Shown: positions 3,078-35,656 of the stretch, one piece after another
Layout: each line of letters begins with the position of its first letter
How positions within the stretch are numbered: position 1 is the stretch's first letter
Virus record (IMG/VR): IMGVR_UViG_3300048061_000271
Location: 1-35,656 of that record
Source: a virus
DNA: 35,656 nucleotides
Reading direction: 5' to 3' (one strand)
Made by a program: the position numbers and the translations under genes
Notes under the pieces: model-generated
What the model was told of the DNA's origin: nothing
Seen by the model: the letters and a program-made list of their open reading frames with translations, nothing else
Databases searched by the model: none

Positions 3078-3081
3078 ATTG

Positions 3082-3105
3082 ACTACATAAGGGTGCTAAT
3101 GTAGT
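3082..3105 (+). promoter_or_regulatory. Hairpin between terminase and portal genes
   Basis: ACTACAT (3082-3088) pairs perfectly with ATGTAGT (3099-3105) around a 10-base loop, followed by TTT and the portal ATG at 3109. It contains the decamer GACTACATAA, which also occurs at 30224-30233 and 34344-34353. It is too weak for a good terminator. It may be a regulatory site or may modulate portal translation. Confidence 0.35.
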
Positions 3106-3108
3106 TTT

Positions 3109-5205
3109 ATGCTACACATGCTCTCTGCCAGCGATCCAGAATTACTATATGTCTCAAAAGAGCCTGACATTGCTTATCTTAGTGAAGCGTACAAGCGTAC
3201 ACAGAGTGATTTAGGTGAATGGTTAGATCGTAGACAAAGAGACTATGATGTCCGTAATTGTTTATGGGCAGGTAAGAGTGATGACTTTAAGAAGCATTCA
3301 AGCCAAAGTTCCACAGGAGATGTGTTCCCCTGGGAAGGTGCGAGTGACCAAGAACAAAGGATGTGCGATGAGTTGATTAATTGCCGGGTGGCAATGTCAA
3401 TGAATGCAATCCGACGTGGTCACATAATAGCCACACCCACTGAATCAAGTGATGTCGAGCGTGCCAATGTGGTATCCATGTTTTTACGATGGTTAATTAA
3501 TTCTAAGATGCAGGAGTTTTATCCTGAGATTGAACTTGGATTAAATCATCTTTTTGAAAAAGGTATGATGGTTCATTATGCTTGGTACGAGAATCAAGAA
3601 CTGAAGCAACAACAGACCATTAAGCTTGAAGAGATTGCCCAAGTCCTTCCACAGATTGCCGGAGCGATACAGGATGGAAGTATGGACGAGGAATTAAGTG
3701 AGGCACTTAAAACACAGTTTGATATTAGCAAGTCCAAGGCACGGGCAATGTTAAAGGAAATGCGTAAGGATGGAGAAACCACAGTACCTGTCACACGCCA
3801 AGTTGTAAGTAGACCCAAGATTAAAGCCCTTGCACCCGATGAGGATGTATTTTGGCCAAGCTATTGTATAGATCCACAGGAAGCACCTTACATGTTTCAT
3901 AGCGTGAGTATGACTCCAGAGCAATTAAGGTCTAAAATTAGTACCGAAAAATGGTCAGAAGAGTTTGTGGATGCAGCGATTGAACTTGCAGGACAAGGCG
4001 AGGATACAGATGAGAACATCTATCAATTGCGAGAGAATGATGAGTTTACCAGAAACAATGATAATAGCCTTGTTAGAATTGTGTACTGTTATCAAAGACT
4101 ATTGGATGAGGATAATGTACCCGGTATTTATTGCACGATCTACCATGCCAATATTTCTGATCTTTATGCCAAGCATCAATTACTTGATTATGCACATGGG
4201 CAATATCCATTCGTGGTAACCACCCTTGAAAAAACAGACAAAAAATTATACTCGTCCAGGTCATACCCAGAGCTTATTGAAAGCTTGCAGCAGGTACTCA
4301 AGGTCGAAACAGATGCAGCGATTGATGCACAATCGTTAACAACTTTACCTCCTTTGGAACACCCTCTTGGTCGAGCCCCTTCCCGTTTTGGGCCGGGTGT
4401 AAAATTACCTTATCGTGTACCTGGTGAAGTAAGATTTGCAGACACACCCCGTGGATCTGGTGTTAATGTAGAACTTCGTAGATACATCCAAGAACAAGCA
4501 GATAGATACTTTGGTAGAAACGCACCAGGAGTAAATCCTGTGGAAGCACAGATGAAGCAACAAGAAGTGATAGATAAAGTATTTCATCACTTAAAACTTC
4601 TACTCGATCAAGTATACTCCCTTTACCAACAGTATGGCCCAGACCAAGAATACTTCCGTGTCACAGGTATGCAGGACATGCAGAAGTACGACAAAGGAAA
4701 TGCTGGTGAACGATTTGATTTTTACATGCAGTTTGATGCTGCCACGCAAGATCCAGAACAAATGCTTGAGCGTGTAAAAGCAATTGCACAACTTGGCGCA
4801 CAACTCGACAAGAATGGTACGCTGGATACCGAGAGATTATTGCAAATTGCAGTTGGGCAGATTTTACCGGGTGCTGCGGAAAGTATCATGCTTCCCAAAG
4901 AAACCGCATCGCAGAAAGCAATGGATGAAGAGAGACAGACTATTGCAGAAATCTATGCTGGCGTACCACCTAATGTTAAACCCAATGATGCCCACGAGAT
5001 GAAGTTGCAGATATTCCAGCAATGGTTAGCTCAACCCGATGTGGCACAAAAGGTACAACAAGACCCTGCCCTACAGGAGCGTATTTCCAATTACCTGCAA
5101 CAAAGACAAATGCAGGTTCAGCAAAAACAAAACGCTGAGATTGGAAGGTTGGGCGCAGCACCCACACAATTTGGATCAACAGGAGCAGCACAAACAGGAG
5201 GATAA
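3109..5205 (+). CDS. Portal protein
   Basis: At 698 aa it is in the size range of podovirus portals. It follows the terminase, as is typical. The N-terminus is DPELLYVSKEPDIAYLSEA. A central charged helical segment (about 160-240) precedes a region rich in prolines and aromatics (PDEDVFWPSYCIDPQEAPY), and the C-terminal third is a glutamine-rich helical stretch (QQRQMQVQQKQN), as in the barrel or crown of P22-like portals. It forms the dodecameric ring through which DNA enters and leaves the head. No Shine-Dalgarno site precedes ATG 3109, and ATG 3118 is an alternative. The assignment rests on position, length and composition, since I see no single diagnostic motif. Confidence 0.88.
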   Translation: MLHMLSASDPELLYVSKEPDIAYLSEAYKRTQSDLGEWLDRRQRDYDVRNCLWAGKSDDFKKHSSQSSTGDVFPWEGASDQEQRMCDELINCRVAMSMNAIRRGHIIATPTESSDVERANVVSMFLRWLINSKMQEFYPEIELGLNHLFEKGMMVHYAWYENQELKQQQTIKLEEIAQVLPQIAGAIQDGSMDEELSEALKTQFDISKSKARAMLKEMRKDGETTVPVTRQVVSRPKIKALAPDEDVFWPSYCIDPQEAPYMFHSVSMTPEQLRSKISTEKWSEEFVDAAIELAGQGEDTDENIYQLRENDEFTRNNDNSLVRIVYCYQRLLDEDNVPGIYCTIYHANISDLYAKHQLLDYAHGQYPFVVTTLEKTDKKLYSSRSYPELIESLQQVLKVETDAAIDAQSLTTLPPLEHPLGRAPSRFGPGVKLPYRVPGEVRFADTPRGSGVNVELRRYIQEQADRYFGRNAPGVNPVEAQMKQQEVIDKVFHHLKLLLDQVYSLYQQYGPDQEYFRVTGMQDMQKYDKGNAGERFDFYMQFDAATQDPEQMLERVKAIAQLGAQLDKNGTLDTERLLQIAVGQILPGAAESIMLPKETASQKAMDEERQTIAEIYAGVPPNVKPNDAHEMKLQIFQQWLAQPDVAQKVQQDPALQERISNYLQQRQMQVQQKQNAEIGRLGAAPTQFGSTGAAQTGG

Positions 5206-6430: not shown

Positions 6431-6453
6431 GTTGCCATTTTTGCTAGACTGCA

Positions 6454-6478
6454 CTACATTTTGCTACACTAGGCTACA
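6454..6478 (+). promoter_or_regulatory. Three CTACA boxes in 10-bp phase before the scaffold gene
   Basis: CTACA occurs at 6454-6458, 6464-6468 and 6474-6478, exactly one helical turn apart, between a strong terminator and the scaffold ATG at 6493. Two-box versions occur upstream of other transcription units. Such phasing is typical of sites bound by multimeric regulators on one DNA face. The binder is unknown. Confidence 0.5.
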
Positions 6479-6492
6479 TATGCCTTGATCTT

Positions 6493-7599
6493 ATGGAAGA
6501 AGCAATTCAAGAGGTTGACTCAGAGTCCTCTCAAAACTCCGTGGATAGTTTAACGTCTGGTGAAGGTAACCTAACAATGGCAGAACTTGCATCATCGCTG
6601 ATGCAGAAACGCCAAAGCGAGGATACTGAAACCACAACCGAAGAGGAATCCGAACCCGTTGCAGAAGAATCTACGGAAGAAGAGGAGGAATCAGAGGATC
6701 AGTCTGCTGAAGAGCCGGAGGAATCAGATGAGGAATCAGATGAGCAACCCGTACAACCTTCAGATGTTCTTTCAAAGTTTAAAGACCTGGATTTGGATTC
6801 ATTATCCGAGGAGGAGTCAAAGGAATTAGCTAAGCATCTCAATGCTTCTGCAATTAAAAGGTTTGGGAAACTGACCGCGCAGAAGAAAGCATTGCTTGCT
6901 GAGAACCAAGAACTCCAAGCACAAGTTGAGCAAGCACCCGTGCCTGCTGAACAACCTGCATTCCTAAAAGATAATGCCCTGCATAATGTCAATGATGTCA
7001 ACGCACTTACCAAGGAAGTAGAGAACCTTAACACGCTTATCGAATGGGCAGACGAAGGGATGGAAAACGAAGTGGAGTACGATGACAATGGCAATGAATA
7101 TGTGGTCAAGGATGCCGACAAGACTTACACCAAAGCGGATCTAAGGAGAATCAAAGCGAATGCCAAAAAAATCCTTCGCAAAGATGCTCCTGCAAGAGAA
7201 GCCTGGATTAAGGAAAGACAAGCAAGTGACCAACAAGCAATACAAACTTTTGATTTCCTTAGTGATGGAGAGAGTGAGGATTACAAAGTATTCATGCAGG
7301 TAAAGCAAAGTCCGCTTTACAAGCCTTTAGTCGAACACCTGCCTAACAGCAACTTTGCACTTGGGCTTATGGTGGAAGGATTAAAGGCAGTCAAAGCAAA
7401 GCAAGCCAATGCAGGTCAACCCAAGAAATTGAAGAAACCTACTGCTCCTGTCGCAAGTGCAGAAGCAGGTGCAAGTAAACCAAGATCCGAGGGAAGTAAA
7501 CATAAGAAAGCTGTACAGGCTGCTCATGCTAAATTTGAGAAGTCAGGTAATATAGCAGACTACCAAAATTACATAAAACTAAAGCGATCAATCGCATAA
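6493..7599 (+). CDS. Capsid assembly scaffolding protein
   Basis: The product is 368 aa directly before the major capsid gene. The first 110 residues are extremely acidic and Ser/Thr-rich (repeated EE/ES blocks). The centre is a charged helical stretch (KKALLAENQELQAQVEQ), and the C-terminus is basic (KPRSEGSKHKKAVQAAHAKF, with KLKRS at the end). Acidic N-terminus, coiled middle and basic capsid-binding tail is the classic scaffold profile. It would shape the procapsid and leave before or during packaging. It lies behind a strong terminator and a triple CTACA box, suggesting its own transcription start. Confidence 0.82.
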   Translation: MEEAIQEVDSESSQNSVDSLTSGEGNLTMAELASSLMQKRQSEDTETTTEEESEPVAEESTEEEEESEDQSAEEPEESDEESDEQPVQPSDVLSKFKDLDLDSLSEEESKELAKHLNASAIKRFGKLTAQKKALLAENQELQAQVEQAPVPAEQPAFLKDNALHNVNDVNALTKEVENLNTLIEWADEGMENEVEYDDNGNEYVVKDADKTYTKADLRRIKANAKKILRKDAPAREAWIKERQASDQQAIQTFDFLSDGESEDYKVFMQVKQSPLYKPLVEHLPNSNFALGLMVEGLKAVKAKQANAGQPKKLKKPTAPVASAEAGASKPRSEGSKHKKAVQAAHAKFEKSGNIADYQNYIKLKRSIA

Positions 7600-13434: not shown

Positions 13435-15062
13435 TGGCACGTTATCGTACATCAGGCAGATTAGATGACCAAGTTCTTCAAGATGGGGATCGTGGATTTC
13501 GTGGTATAGATTCATACAAAGAAGCAACAAGTTTAGAACCGGGCTTTGTACGGACAAGCGAGAATATGCGCTTGATTGGTGACCTTGCAGAGGTGCGCAA
13601 GGGTATAGATTTTTTAGCAGGTGCAGTTACACTTAGCTACAATGGTACGAATGAGATGGTATTTGCATCCACACTCTACTCAGATCCTGCAACAGGAAAT
13701 GAATATGTGGTAGCTGCAACCAAGGATAAAGTAATCCTTTGGAATGATGCAAATAACTCAGGCATCGATATTGATTATCCAGGCAGTGAAGTTGTGGCCA
13801 CAGCAGATGGCGCGAGCTTCGTGCAGGCATTGGAAAAACTCATCTTGTTTCGTGGTAAGAATAAAACTCCACTTGAATGGGATGGAGATGTAAGCAATGA
13901 CTTTGTGGTTAAAGCAAATGGAAGCCCAGGTGCTGGACGCATACAATGTCCAAACACAGACTTTGGTGTATTCTTTCGTAATCGCTTAATCATCCCACAA
14001 CCCACAGATAGTAACTATTCCATTATCATGTCTGACCTGTTGGACACAGATAATTACTACGCTGCTGAATCACAATTTAGAATCAATAAAGGAAGTGCAG
14101 ATTTTCTTGTAGGCTTTTATCCATACCAAGAAGATCAGTTAATCGTGTTTATGCGTAATAGCATTCACATGATAAATAACATTGCGACAACCTCCGCAGC
14201 TAACACTTACGAGATTACCCGTCAGCATGGTTGTGTGGCACGCAAATCAATCGCACAGTCTGGGCCACAAACATTCTTCCTATCAGATAATGGGGTCATC
14301 GTCTTGTCACCTGGTACAGACCCTGCCAAGGGACTAGGAGTAGCTATTAGTAAAGTAAGTGGCGAGACCATACCCATGACCAGACCTATACAAGATCAAT
14401 TTGATGAGGTTAACTTTGCAGCAGCAGATAAAGCGTGTGGCATTGTGTATGACAACAAATACTACCTTGCAGTCCCAACAGGTAGTTCAACAGTAGCTAA
14501 TAAGATTTTCATATTTAACCTACTTACAAGCACCTGGACTAGCGTTGACTCCTACCCTGCCCTAGCAGGCAGTGTGGCATTTCATGTGGATGATTGGGTA
14601 ATCTGCTCGCATGGAAGCAACCCAACAAGACGCAGACTATTTGCAGGTAACAAAACAGGCTGGTATCTCATGGAAGAAAATTCCATTGATGATAGTGGAC
14701 GCAAGATAGGAAGTACATCCGAGTCAGGCACAACTGCAATTGCAGGTAAACTTATCACACGCTCATACACCTTTGGAGACATCAATGTAAAGAGTTGGAA
14801 GCGTGGTCAGTTGGGTGCAAACACAGTTAACCAAGATGCATTTAACATCAAGGTCAACACACTCGATCCAGACGCAAGTACCACAGTATTAAGCCACACC
14901 GCAGATGGCACGGAAGAAGCACTCTTCCGCTTTGGTACGGGGCGTACCCGTGGGTATGGTGCGGAAGTAGAAATCAATGTCACTGCTGGCAGACCAAGCT
15001 TTAGACATGTTAGCTTGGAAGCTATAGGCGTAGGAGCAAATGCAAGACGTGAGGTGGCATAA
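13434..15062 (+). CDS. Tail nozzle-like structural protein
   Basis: The 542-aa protein is almost entirely beta-structured, with repeating short strands. Examples are EYVVAATKDKVILWNDANNS, KLILFRGKNKTPLEWDGD, FFLSDNGVIVLSPG, KIFIFNLLTSTWTS and WVICSHGSNPTRR. The repeating W/F-x-x-D pattern suggests a beta-propeller. It begins ARYRTSGRLDDQVLQDGDRG. Long beta-propeller-containing proteins in this genome position are the tail nozzle (T7 gp12 / P22 gp10 type) of podoviruses. The gene overlaps its neighbours by one base on each side (TAATG). Confidence 0.7.
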   Translation: MARYRTSGRLDDQVLQDGDRGFRGIDSYKEATSLEPGFVRTSENMRLIGDLAEVRKGIDFLAGAVTLSYNGTNEMVFASTLYSDPATGNEYVVAATKDKVILWNDANNSGIDIDYPGSEVVATADGASFVQALEKLILFRGKNKTPLEWDGDVSNDFVVKANGSPGAGRIQCPNTDFGVFFRNRLIIPQPTDSNYSIIMSDLLDTDNYYAAESQFRINKGSADFLVGFYPYQEDQLIVFMRNSIHMINNIATTSAANTYEITRQHGCVARKSIAQSGPQTFFLSDNGVIVLSPGTDPAKGLGVAISKVSGETIPMTRPIQDQFDEVNFAAADKACGIVYDNKYYLAVPTGSSTVANKIFIFNLLTSTWTSVDSYPALAGSVAFHVDDWVICSHGSNPTRRRLFAGNKTGWYLMEENSIDDSGRKIGSTSESGTTAIAGKLITRSYTFGDINVKSWKRGQLGANTVNQDAFNIKVNTLDPDASTTVLSHTADGTEEALFRFGTGRTRGYGAEVEINVTAGRPSFRHVSLEAIGVGANARREVA

Positions 15063-23979: not shown

Positions 23980-23994
23980 CTACAATCAACTACA
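23980..23994 (+). promoter_or_regulatory. Two CTACAAT boxes in 10-bp phase
   Basis: CTACA at 23980-23984 and 23990-23994 (CTACAATCAACTACAATTAG) sit 8 bases before ATG 24002. Just upstream is GCAAAAACGATAA, close to ACAAAAACGATAA before the SSB gene. It belongs to the phased-box family described in the findings. Confidence 0.5.
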
Positions 23995-24001
23995 ATTAGT
24001 T

Positions 24002-24247
24002 ATGATAACAACAGCAGTATTTAATGGTATAGAATTTCGTATACAAGAAAACGGGGCAGTCGAGATATTTGCCGACCGCCCTAGTGTAGTACAGATTACA
24101 GACTTGCAGGAATTACTTACTTCTTTTTTGAAAGCTCAAACTTCAACGGAAGTTCAAAACAATAATCATTCTCTCGAATCGTCTTACAAGCTGCACGAAG
24201 AACCATGTCGTAAAGCTGGGCTTGGAGGAGACCTGTATCCTCACTAA
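24002..24247 (+). CDS. Small hypothetical protein (81 aa), overlaps an antisense gene
   Basis: The first 50 residues look like a real small fold: two strands (TTAVFNGIEFRIQENGAVEI) and a helix (ITDLQELLTSFLKAQ). The last about 43 codons lie over the antisense ribbon-helix-helix gene and look less protein-like. The ATG follows a phased CTACA pair. No family is recognised. If the C-terminal part is real, the two genes overlap tail to tail by 131 bases. Confidence 0.5.
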   Translation: MITTAVFNGIEFRIQENGAVEIFADRPSVVQITDLQELLTSFLKAQTSTEVQNNNHSLESSYKLHEEPCRKAGLGGDLYPH

Positions 24248-24326
24248 CTGTTTTAATCGTTTTACGCACTTCAGAGTGTAAACGTAGGGATAAGGGTTTG
24301 GTTAGATTTTCACGTGTCTTGCTCAT
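24117..24326 (-). CDS. Ribbon-helix-helix DNA-binding protein (69 aa), candidate regulator
   Basis: I choose the ATG at 24326 (MSKTRENLTKPLSLRLHSEV). The sequence KPLSLRLHSEVRKTIKTVSE followed by TGLLQAQLYDMVLRAAC has the strand, helix and helix order of Arc/CopG/MetJ-type ribbon-helix-helix proteins, with alternating residues in the strand (S-L-R-L) that would face the major groove. It is transcribed away from the replication operon, from a shared 69-bp region that contains three 10-bp-phased TACAA-like boxes. Such proteins bind tandem short repeats as dimers of dimers, so it is a good candidate for a repressor of the early operon. This link is inference. Confidence 0.72.
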   Translation of the reverse strand: MSKTRENLTKPLSLRLHSEVRKTIKTVSEDTGLLQAQLYDMVLRAACKTIRENDYCFELPLKFELSKKK

Positions 24327-24349
24327 GCACCTTAAAAAGCATGACAAAA

Positions 24350-24374
24350 TACAATAAGCAACAATAAAATACAA
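24350..24374. promoter_or_regulatory. Three phased TACAA/AACAA boxes between the divergent regulator and early operon
   Basis: TACAA (24350-24354), AACAA (24360-24364) and TACAA (24370-24374) are exactly 10 bp apart. The first part, TACAATAAGCAACA, closely matches TACAATAAGTTACA upstream of 28351. The position between the divergent ribbon-helix-helix gene and the SSB-like gene is where an early-operon operator would be expected. Confidence 0.5.
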
Positions 24375-28334: not shown

Positions 28335-28349
28335 CTACAATAAGTTACA
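28335..28349 (+). promoter_or_regulatory. Phased CTACA/TTACA pair
   Basis: CTACA (28335-28339) and TTACA (28345-28349) are 10 bp apart, and the ATG at 28351 follows after one base. It belongs to the phased-box family. No ribosome site is visible. Confidence 0.5.
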
Positions 28350-28350
28350 C

Positions 28351-28467
28351 ATGAATACACTTAATAAAATCATGAATAAAATAATAATAACAGCAATATT
28401 TACAGCAGCAGTTATCACCTGGGCATGGATGATATTGGCATGGATAGCAGCATTAATAGGAGCATAA
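28351..28467 (+). CDS. 38-aa hydrophobic peptide
   Basis: ATG 28351 follows a phased CTACA/TTACA pair by one base. After a short N-terminus with two Lys, the rest is one long hydrophobic segment (IIITAIFTAAVITWAWMILA and on) to the end, so the peptide is probably embedded in the membrane. The stop is two bases before the next ATG. No family can be assigned. The frame is supported by composition and by tight spacing. Confidence 0.5.
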   Translation: MNTLNKIMNKIIITAIFTAAVITWAWMILAWIAALIGA

Positions 28468-30225: not shown

Positions 30226-30290
30226 CTACATAATGTTACATATGATACCATATGAAGCCCAAGAAGGCATCTAAAAAGCGTTTTGATTGA
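30226..30290 (+). other. Phased box pair followed by a 12-codon mini-ORF
   Basis: CTACA (30226-30230) and TTACA (30236-30240) are 10 bp apart. A palindrome CATATG-ATAC-CATATG (30239-30254) overlaps them. ATG 30252 opens a 12-codon frame (MKPKKASKKRFD) that stops at 30288-30290, just past the left arm of the next terminator. It has the same box-then-ATG layout as real genes. Whether it is translated is unknown. Confidence 0.3.
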
Positions 30291-32131: not shown

Positions 32132-32146
32132 GGTAACCTTTTGTAG
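32132..32146 (-). promoter_or_regulatory. Phased CTACA/TTACC pair (minus strand)
   Basis: On the minus strand CTACA (32146-32142) and TTACC (32136-32132) are 10 bp apart, directly upstream of ATG 32130. The sequence AACTCAAAATATACTAC, which belongs to the second leader family, precedes it, so both motif families meet here. Confidence 0.45.
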
Positions 32147-32382: not shown

Positions 32383-32627
32383 TAAAAACAAGCAATTGCG
32401 CTTGCATGAATACAACAAAACACAACGATTGCACCATGTCAACTTATTTTGTAGTCAATCGTCACACAACTAATAAAATCTTGCGTCCCACTATACATGC
32501 TACATGCAAGCGTGCCATCGCAAAGCGATGCCATGCACCATGCAAAAAAAGTTTCATGCAATCTTGCAAACTTAGTACCATGTGATCCTTGCAAACAAGT
32601 AGCATGAAATCATGTGGCTTGGGAAGC

Positions 32628-32667
32628 ATGGAAGTATGGAAGTAAGGAAGTATGGAAGCATGGAAGT
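32628..32667. repeat. Tandem octamer array ATGGAAGT (5 copies)
   Basis: Five head-to-tail 8-bp units span 32628-32667: ATGGAAGT, ATGGAAGT, AAGGAAGT, ATGGAAGC, ATGGAAGT. A decayed unit TGGGAAGC lies just before (32620-32627). It may be an iteron array bound by an initiator, or simple slippage expansion. Confidence 0.85.
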
Positions 32668-32722
32668 ATTAATGCAAGTAAGTTGCGTTTAAAAAGCATT
32701 CCTCCCCGGTAACCACTTTTTA

Positions 32723-33153: not shown

Positions 33154-33177
33154 GTAGGGTAATGTAGTTTGAGTTAG
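33153..33177 (-). promoter_or_regulatory. Three phased CTAAC/CTACA/CTACG boxes (minus strand)
   Basis: On the minus strand CTAAC (33177-33173), CTACA (33167-33163) and CTACG (33157-33153) are exactly 10 bp apart, and the first is part of TAACTCAAAC. The array lies in the spacer between the HNH gene and the origin-like segment. It faces away from the HNH gene, so it may control transcription through the segment. Confidence 0.45.
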
Positions 33178-34297: not shown

Positions 34298-34345
34298 GGT
34301 ATTTTTATTTTTTTTCAGAAAATACTTGCATTGTCAAGTGTAAGA

Positions 34346-34360
34346 CTACATAAGGCTACA
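34346..34360 (+). promoter_or_regulatory. Two CTACA boxes in 10-bp phase before the HTH gene
   Basis: CTACA at 34346-34350 and 34356-34360, with ATG 34362 one base later. The sequence GACTACATAAGGCTACA is nearly identical to GACTACATAATGTTACA at 30224. The region also separates this gene from the divergent TerS-like gene, so it may control both. Confidence 0.5.
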
Positions 34361-34361
34361 A

Positions 34362-34790
34362 ATGGATGTTGATAGGGGAAAAGAGATATTAAAGAAGGCG
34401 TGTATGAACTACACGGAGTTTAGCAAGTTGATGGGAGTAAAGCCTATTACAGTGAGGCTTGCGTTTAGTCAGAAGCGACTGAGCAAGAAGATGGTTGCTA
34501 AATTGCTTGAGATGGAAGAACCGCAGAAGGAAGAGGAAGAGAAGAGTGAGCGTACTTTGATTAAGGAAGGAATGATTAAACAGAGTATGGGGGAAGTACG
34601 CAGCGCTAAGGTCTATCTGTTACCTAAGAATCCATATTTACGCTTTATAGAATTTATTGATGGCACACATGGCAAGTTCCGGGCAAAGCCGGGTACGTTT
34701 GGATTGGGAAGTGTGGTCAAGGTTAAGAGGGAAGATGGAGATATGTACACCTTGGAAGGCGAGTACGATAGGAAAGGAAGATTAGTATGA
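34362..34790 (+). CDS. HTH DNA-binding protein (142 aa), candidate regulator
   Basis: The N-terminal 50 residues form a helix-turn-helix-like unit (ILKKACMNYTEFSKLMGVKP, then ITVRLAFSQKRLSKKMVAKL). A charged linker (EEPQKEEEEKSERT) follows. The C-terminal half is a beta-rich domain (RSAKVYLLPKNPYLRFIEFI; GTFGLGSVVKVKREDGDMYT) of the kind found in small oligomerisation or cap domains. It has one phased CTACA pair before its ATG and lies divergent to the HNH/TerS-like genes. A repressor or early-gene regulator is plausible. It is coupled to the next gene by ATGA. Confidence 0.65.
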   Translation: MDVDRGKEILKKACMNYTEFSKLMGVKPITVRLAFSQKRLSKKMVAKLLEMEEPQKEEEEKSERTLIKEGMIKQSMGEVRSAKVYLLPKNPYLRFIEFIDGTHGKFRAKPGTFGLGSVVKVKREDGDMYTLEGEYDRKGRLV

Positions 34791-34903: not shown

Positions 34904-35656
34904 TGTGGATAATACCCAAAACATTATCAGCTTTTGTACCGGATACGGAGGGCTTGAACTTGGAATTAGACGAGCAGGCGTGGATGTTAGAGTCATCTGC
35001 AATGTGGAGATCGAAGCCTTCGTCCAAGCAAACCTGGTTGCGAAGACTGAAGAAGGGAGGATGGATAACGCACCTATCTACTCGGATCTTAAAACCTTCC
35101 CTGCACGAGAGTTTCGTGGAAAAGTACACGGACTCATTGGAGGATATCCATGCCAGCCATTCAGTTCAGCAGGCAAGCGACAAGGAGAAAAAGACCCAAG
35201 ACACTTATGGCCATACATCCTCAAGCACGTCAGGGCAATTAGACCTGTTTGGTGTTTTTGGGAAAATGTCCAAGGACACACCACGATGGGGCTATGGCGA
35301 GTCTTGTCCGATTTGGAAGAAGAAGGTTATAGATGCACGTTCGGCATATTCAGCGCGGAAGAAGTTGGCGCTCCACACCAAAGGAAACGAGTGTTCATCT
35401 TGGGGTACTCCGAAGGAACAGGACTCCCGTGCGGCATCATGGGACAGAGGGAAGAGCAACTTGGGGGAGCAGGTGCATGGGATGGCAAAGTCCTGGGCAA
35501 CACCACAAGCCTCCGACCACATCGAGGGCGCGAGAACTGCGAAGGAGAGCAATCAGAAGTGCTTGGGGAGAGACTTGAATCAGATGCAGAATTGGCCAAC
35601 CCCACGAGCAGGCAACCCAGGCAGTCGCAAGCCCGGAACGGGGGGCAAGATACTAG
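34860..35656 (+). CDS. DNA cytosine-5 methyltransferase, N-terminal part (continues at base 1)
   Basis: The closed gene is 385 codons (34860 through 35529, then 1-488). Motif I is ISFCTGYGGLELG (23-35). Motif IV is GGYPCQPFS with catalytic C98, motif VI is ENVQGH (E135), and motif VIII is PHQRKRVFILG (172-182). A target-recognition region follows, and motif X is in the other piece. It transfers methyl groups to cytosine C5. I take ATG 34860 because GAGGAGGAAGAG lies just upstream. A GTG at 34905, 45 bases downstream, also has a ribosome-site-like sequence and is closer to motif I. Either start gives a full catalytic domain. A second frame is open through the whole gene. Confidence 0.92.
   Translation, partial: MSFNALNGNVSREGNVDNTQNIISFCTGYGGLELGIRRAGVDVRVICNVEIEAFVQANLVAKTEEGRMDNAPIYSDLKTFPAREFRGKVHGLIGGYPCQPFSSAGKRQGEKDPRHLWPYILKHVRAIRPVWCFWENVQGHTTMGLWRVLSDLEEEGYRCTFGIFSAEEVGAPHQRKRVFILGYSEGTGLPCGIMGQREEQLGGAGAWDGKVLGNTTSLRPHRGRENCEGEQSEVLGERLESDAELANPTSRQPRQSQARNGGQDT
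34903..35656 (+). CDS. Overlapping out-of-frame protein with W-x-T-P repeats, N-terminal part
   Basis: The closed frame is 358 codons (34903-35529, then 1-450), +1 to the methyltransferase. It begins MWIIPKTLSAFVPDTEGLN, with the ATG in the TAATG junction of the preceding 38-aa gene. Key segments are WLRRLKKGGWITHLSTRIL, EKYTDSLEDIHASHS, QASDKEKKTQDTYGHTS, GQLDLFGVFGKMSKDTPRW and EYS-like SARKKLALHTKG. Then come the repeats SSWGTPKEQDSRA and KSWATPQASDHIEG. The ILKPSxxxxFVEKxT...HASHS...KTQDTYGH...KTSKDT order is one I remember from phage-encoded proteins, which argues that this frame is conserved. Translation is unproven. Confidence 0.5.
   Translation, partial: MWIIPKTLSAFVPDTEGLNLELDEQAWMLESSAMWRSKPSSKQTWLRRLKKGGWITHLSTRILKPSLHESFVEKYTDSLEDIHASHSVQQASDKEKKTQDTYGHTSSSTSGQLDLFGVFGKMSKDTPRWGYGESCPIWKKKVIDARSAYSARKKLALHTKGNECSSWGTPKEQDSRAASWDRGKSNLGEQVHGMAKSWATPQASDHIEGARTAKESNQKCLGRDLNQMQNWPTPRAGNPGSRKPGTGGKIL
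35530..35656. repeat. Right copy of the exact 127-bp terminal duplication
   Basis: It is identical base for base to 1-127. The duplicated segment lies within the methyltransferase gene. See the left copy for interpretation. Confidence 0.97.

Follow-up and report, generated by a model that had tools for sequence, protein, structure and literature searches.

The genome of a marine phage, 35,656 nt in length (35.7 kb; IMG/VR record IMGVR_UViG_3300048061_000271, positions 1 to 35,656, referred to here as the window), carries a family of CTACA boxes that recur in pairs and triples exactly 10 bp apart, near the starts and junctions of early, late and regulatory genes. The best explanation, to which we would give about an even chance, is that these are operator- or stoperator-like arrays read by a single phage regulator, that the regulator is a ribbon-helix-helix protein and that it acts by repression. 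The late region is arranged as TerL-portal-scaffold-capsid and the early region as SSB-exonuclease-DnaA-like-DnaB, and the genome ends in a 127-base direct terminal repeat (1-127 and 35530-35656), which is spanned by a methyltransferase-like gene. A tyrosine recombinase (integrase) is present and is the one feature that points to lysogeny; no prophage of this group was found. Neither a phage RNA polymerase nor a sigma factor was recognized among the genes translated and scanned.

The pattern CTACA-N5-YTACA occurs six times on the plus strand of the whole window and not at all on the minus strand, while dinucleotide shuffles gave means of 0.1 (plus) and 0.09 (minus) pairs, with maxima of two and one, respectively. 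CTACA ranks first among all 5-mers of the window repeated at a 5-base gap, and in a scan of gaps from 0 to 20 no gap other than 5 yielded more than two pairs. Shuffles, gap scan and conservation together reject a chance origin. A coding-sequence artefact was likewise rejected, with families inside coding sequences set aside; chief among these is TTACA-N5-CTACA at 13627 within a tail gene, which is probably a coding coincidence. The plus-strand sites listed in a first-pass annotation of the sequence (6454/6464/6474, 23980/23990, 28335/28345, 30226/30236 and 34346/34356) matched exactly, as did the recurrence of GACTACATAA at 3081, 30224 and 34344. Its two minus-strand sites fared less well: the pair at 32146/32136 is plausible but weaker (CTACA-N5-TTACC at 32132-32146, before a small ORF; pair score 16.5) and lacks the claimed YTACA second box, and the triple at 33177/33167/33157 reads CTAAC/CTACA/CTACG, with a profile score at chance level. 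A box profile built from relatives only, and then run on the window, recovered 6454, 23980, 28335, 30226 and 34346. Over 26 families, this profile repeats RYTACAW-N2-R, and a third in-phase repeat is weakly visible.

Relatives were gathered by scanning IMG/VR with the tail, HTH, DnaB, scaffold and ribbon-helix-helix proteins, which returned more than 300 loci. In 11 related genomes, intergenic DNA makes up 7.4% of the sequence and contains 27 N5 pairs, 26 of them in the sense orientation and one in the antisense. Many relatives retain pairs in front of the HTH gene, 3′ of dnaB and in the 28335 junction; pairs are also kept at the scaffold gene and at ORF 24002, and the strict pair is missing after dnaB or at 28335 in some relatives. 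The two-box array before ORF 24002 (23980-23994, plus strand) has its counterpart in other clades with the ATG between both boxes. At the short gene junction at 28335-28359 (plus strand), three boxes read CTACA/TTACA/ATACA, the third, in-phase unit at 28355 being an addition to the sites annotated earlier; here the boxes are kept and the flanks replaced, such that one pair is found within four different flanking sequences among relatives. A further two-box array (30226-30240, plus strand) lies directly 3′ of dnaB and is followed by a 10-codon ORF and a terminator-like hairpin. In some relatives a PAPS-reductase-like gene has been inserted between TerL and the small gene at 1025, and a box pair of its own abuts the ATG. 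This gene, named by its sequence motif only (LGAGVQSS), occupies 12012-12797 in contig L087 and 6434-7219 in L103. No -35 element is visible in the short junctions at 28335, 30226 or the PAPS-reductase sites. The pattern is neither as frequent in coding or shuffled DNA as between genes nor absent from relatives, in which the same genes keep their boxes. Statistics, conservation and the retention of boxes where flanks differ all give good support to the earlier proposal of a phage-wide regulon of helically phased boxes.

The likeliest binder, as the annotation had also proposed, is the 69-aa ribbon-helix-helix-like protein encoded at 24117-24326 on the minus strand, judged by where its gene lies, by co-occurrence with the boxes and by its conserved strand. 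In every relative with sufficient sequence (103 of 103), its gene is placed opposite SSB, and an array lies between them. In the window this array (24349-24373, plus strand) reads ATACA/CAACA/ATACA and overlaps both of the divergent promoters predicted from the sequence, ATGACA-N18-TAAAAT for SSB (24341-24370, plus) and TTGTAT-N17-TATTTT for the ribbon-helix-helix gene (24346-24374, minus). The annotation had reported it as a TACAA/AACAA/TACAA triple, and it holds up as a weak three-unit array whose period-10 signal recurs in relatives, the mean score being 10.5 at period 10 versus -2.5 to 0.8 at periods 7-9 and 11-14. The N-terminal strand of the protein follows P-x-S-x-R-L, and 12 diverse sequences show no variation at P11, S13, R15 or L16; alternate residues, the candidate DNA contacts, are conserved, as is characteristic of ribbon-helix-helix proteins. 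In a monomer model, helices at 18-31 and 35-52 follow an N-terminal extended stretch, and the top Foldseek matches are Arc and CopG, both weak (best E 1.3, Z below 4, about 3); Pfam gave no hit for the protein.

The same operators could be read by the HTH protein encoded at 34362-34790 (plus strand), an assignment that we consider unlikely. Its gene is as widespread as the ribbon-helix-helix gene, is conserved in all sequences that extend over the region, and bears a conserved box pair on its own -10 and start codon. In the window the two-box array is at 34346-34360 (plus strand), with box 1 at the -10 position (TACATA) and a -35-like TTGCAT (34326-34331; TTGACA in distant clades) 15 bp upstream; a TTG stands 15 bp 5′ of box 1 in 34 of 36 HTH promoters. 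The predicted HTH fold resembles phage Aca2, with an additional C-terminal OB/S1-like domain. However, the recognition helix differs between clades and the box does not, and a separate dyad-like element (TTGACAGGTCAA or CTTGnnTTGTCAAG) upstream in the HTH promoter would suit a dimeric HTH protein better. As an observation in its own right, the combination of an HTH with a predicted OB/S1/IF1-like domain hints at RNA or dual DNA/RNA binding.

The relation of boxes to promoters is clearest at the scaffold gene, where a terminator-like hairpin and T run end immediately 5′ of the array, so that the next 60 bases should contain a promoter of the scaffold operon. A -35 element, TTGCCA (6432-6437, plus strand), is followed after 17 bp by the three-box array CTACA-N5-CTACA-N5-CTACA (6454-6478, plus strand), of which box 1 supplies the -10 hexamer TACATT (6455-6460). 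Among the distinct scaffold regions whose box can be read, 53 of 53 have a TTG exactly 17 bp 5′ of box 1; the other bases of that hexamer vary, and the -10 is TACATT, TACAAT, TACACT or TATATT. With box 1 as the -10, scaffold mRNA would start in box 2. The core TTTTGCTACACTAGG is nearly invariant in relatives and the sequence upstream varies; some relatives have reverse TGTAG boxes inside the site. Near the predicted 5′ end of the mRNA, a short hairpin (AGGC..GCCT, 6470-6488, plus strand) shows paired changes in relatives (AGGC/GCCT, AGGTA/TACCT, ACGCT/AGCGT) and may protect the scaffold transcript. The annotation had placed most boxes 1-15 bases before an ATG; starts do lie 1 to 14 bases after most arrays, but the ATG directly after 6474 opens a two-codon dead end and the scaffold start is at 6493. 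Upstream of the portal gene, single boxes at 3083 and 3112 (3083-3116, plus strand) are out of phase in the window, and several relatives have a clean phased array. Other clades carry TTGACC-N17-TACAAT at the portal, and a contig binned in an Opitutia MAG carries TTGACT-N17-TATAAT with three phased boxes, CTACA/CTATA/CTACA.

Read in this way, the boxes overlie ordinary sigma70-type promoters, and one box often doubles as the putative -10. It is improbable that they are promoter elements and nothing else, that is, variant -10 hexamers (TACAAT, TACATT, TACACT) for the host sigma factor, with the extra copies serving as alternative starts. The fixed TTG spacings, N17 in 53 of 53 scaffold and N15 in 34 of 36 HTH regions, and the portal TTGACC-N17-TACAAT all favour such a reading, but it leaves unexplained the strict 10-bp period, the boxes in promoter spacers or codons 2-3, the -10 positions such as TACGAG that are kept as boxes, and the arrays without any -35. 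Sigma70-type -35/-10 pairs with a spacing of about 17 bp are found at the scaffold and at the portal of relatives, and are not seen at 28335 and 30226. The array as a whole also slides relative to the promoter, and its position ranges from the spacer to codons 2-3, as would be expected of an operator more than of a promoter element with a fixed place. The choice between -10 element and operator, posed by the annotation, has a mixed answer: one box is the apparent -10 in several promoters, and an operator role better fits the boxes that fall in the spacer, on the transcription start or within the first codons.

That the boxes are sites for an activator akin to lambda CII, which would turn on early and late genes, is about as improbable. 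One clade (L381, L387 and L281) has inverted repeats of the TGTAAGG..CCTTACA type in the spacer of its scaffold and portal promoters; part of it has no CTACA array after the -10, and some of its boxes lie upstream of the -35, in an activator-type position; all of this speaks against the repressor reading. These upstream boxes in the portal promoter, the box pair that belongs to the inserted PAPS-reductase-like gene, the poor -10 and -35 at some arrays and the 10-bp direct-repeat geometry shared with CII sites are what activation has in its favour. Against it, most arrays overlap the -10, the transcription start or the initiation codon, positions from which a bound protein would ordinarily obstruct transcription. 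Portal and scaffold switch jointly in the inverted-repeat clade: under a strict rule, 59 pairings are array/array, three repeat/repeat and seven array/repeat, but the portals shown for the seven array/repeat cases bear a slightly shorter GTAAGG..CCTTAC. A joint change of protein and box, sought by means of this clade, was not found, and protein alignments singled out no one regulator. Finally, an RNA-level leader signal, such as translation control or masking of the start codon, is highly improbable: several pairs do stop one base 5′ of an ATG, and a Shine-Dalgarno sequence is missing from most box-led genes but present at the capsid gene; on the other side, the distance from box to start codon ranges from -9 to +24, boxes also occur in promoter spacers, which would go untranscribed, and the reverse TGTAG boxes are easier to accommodate in a double-stranded DNA site than in an RNA site.

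Repression from operator arrays would then work as follows. The site would consist of two to four 10-bp units, RYTACAWNNR, presented on one helix face and nearly always oriented along transcription. Arrays over the -35, the -10 or the start of the scaffold, portal (in relatives), SSB, ribbon-helix-helix and HTH promoters would allow bound protein to block RNA polymerase, and in the junctions at 28335 and 30226, where no promoter is visible, the protein could act as a roadblock. The ribbon-helix-helix protein (24117-24326) would bind the boxes and, being encoded divergently from the early replication operon, across an intervening array, would form an autoregulated switch repressor that silences early and late genes together, as lysogeny requires. 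From the arrays, their statistics, orientation and conservation, and their position relative to promoter-like sequences, we infer binding, the identity of the binder and repression over activation. A fuller version, in which a ribbon-helix-helix protein of about 70 residues stacks on phased arrays and confers genome-wide immunity that includes elongation roadblocks at gene junctions, in a large group of uncultured phages with perhaps marine Verrucomicrobiota as hosts, is possible, if doubtful.

Several known systems offer parallels. Lambda CII sites are TTGC-N6-TTGC direct repeats one helical turn apart, and the boxes share this spacing; CII sites, however, flank the -35 and activate, whereas the boxes mostly cover the region from the -10 to the start codon. 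In mycobacteriophage L5 (Cluster A), many asymmetric operators and stoperators occupy promoters and the short gaps between genes, and their orientation follows transcription (PMC9283540). The window resembles L5 both in its many asymmetric copies in such places and in their orientation along transcription, but L5 uses single 13-mers and a monomeric HTH repressor, where here there are arrays of 10-bp units and probably a small ribbon-helix-helix binder. Family scans of the candidate regulators (PHROGs, Pfam and NCBIfam) named no L5-type repressor family with an HTH and a stoperator domain. The operator of the phage P2 C repressor also comprises direct repeats around the -10 of its switch promoter (PMC4752584), as the boxes do around theirs, although the P2 repeats are 8 bp, 22 bp from centre to centre, and serve one switch, whereas the boxes are 10 bp apart and genome-wide. 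In ParR/parC and omega-type systems, ribbon-helix-helix dimers bind short direct repeats, of 10 bp for ParR, and the neighbouring promoter is repressed (PMC5016525); the window has similar short direct repeats, with the 10-bp period of ParR, but ParR/parC and omega are single plasmid centromere or operator loci and here the sites are spread genome-wide. A partition site was rejected on this spread, and no motor gene was recognized. Overall, the distribution resembles that of L5 stoperators and the geometry is nearer to P2 C, lambda CII and ribbon-helix-helix arrays, and the boxes seem to work like these.

If the regulon reading is true, a phage group known almost solely from metagenomes would gain a readable regulatory code, in which promoters are located and a candidate master regulator is named. 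Should the junction sites truly halt elongation, control of the stoperator type would have evolved a further time, on another protein fold. The boxes could also mark contigs of this group and predict immunity types. Literature searches on the motif and on this phage group returned nothing specific, and among named phages the closest, C75C1 (29% in TerL), has no YTACA pairs and no match to the ribbon-helix-helix protein. The only relatives found in the genome collection are in two contigs, L297 and L298, binned in Opitutia and Verrucomicrobiota MAGs; this binning may hint at Verrucomicrobiota as hosts, bearing in mind that phage contigs can be binned wrongly. A host-wide motif was rejected, as the two Verrucomicrobiota MAGs are near control (three forward and one reverse versus one and one; two and none versus two and one). 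Elsewhere in the window, the accessory region at 32560-32680 contains low-complexity, GGAAGTA/GGAAGCATGGAAGTA-like repeats.
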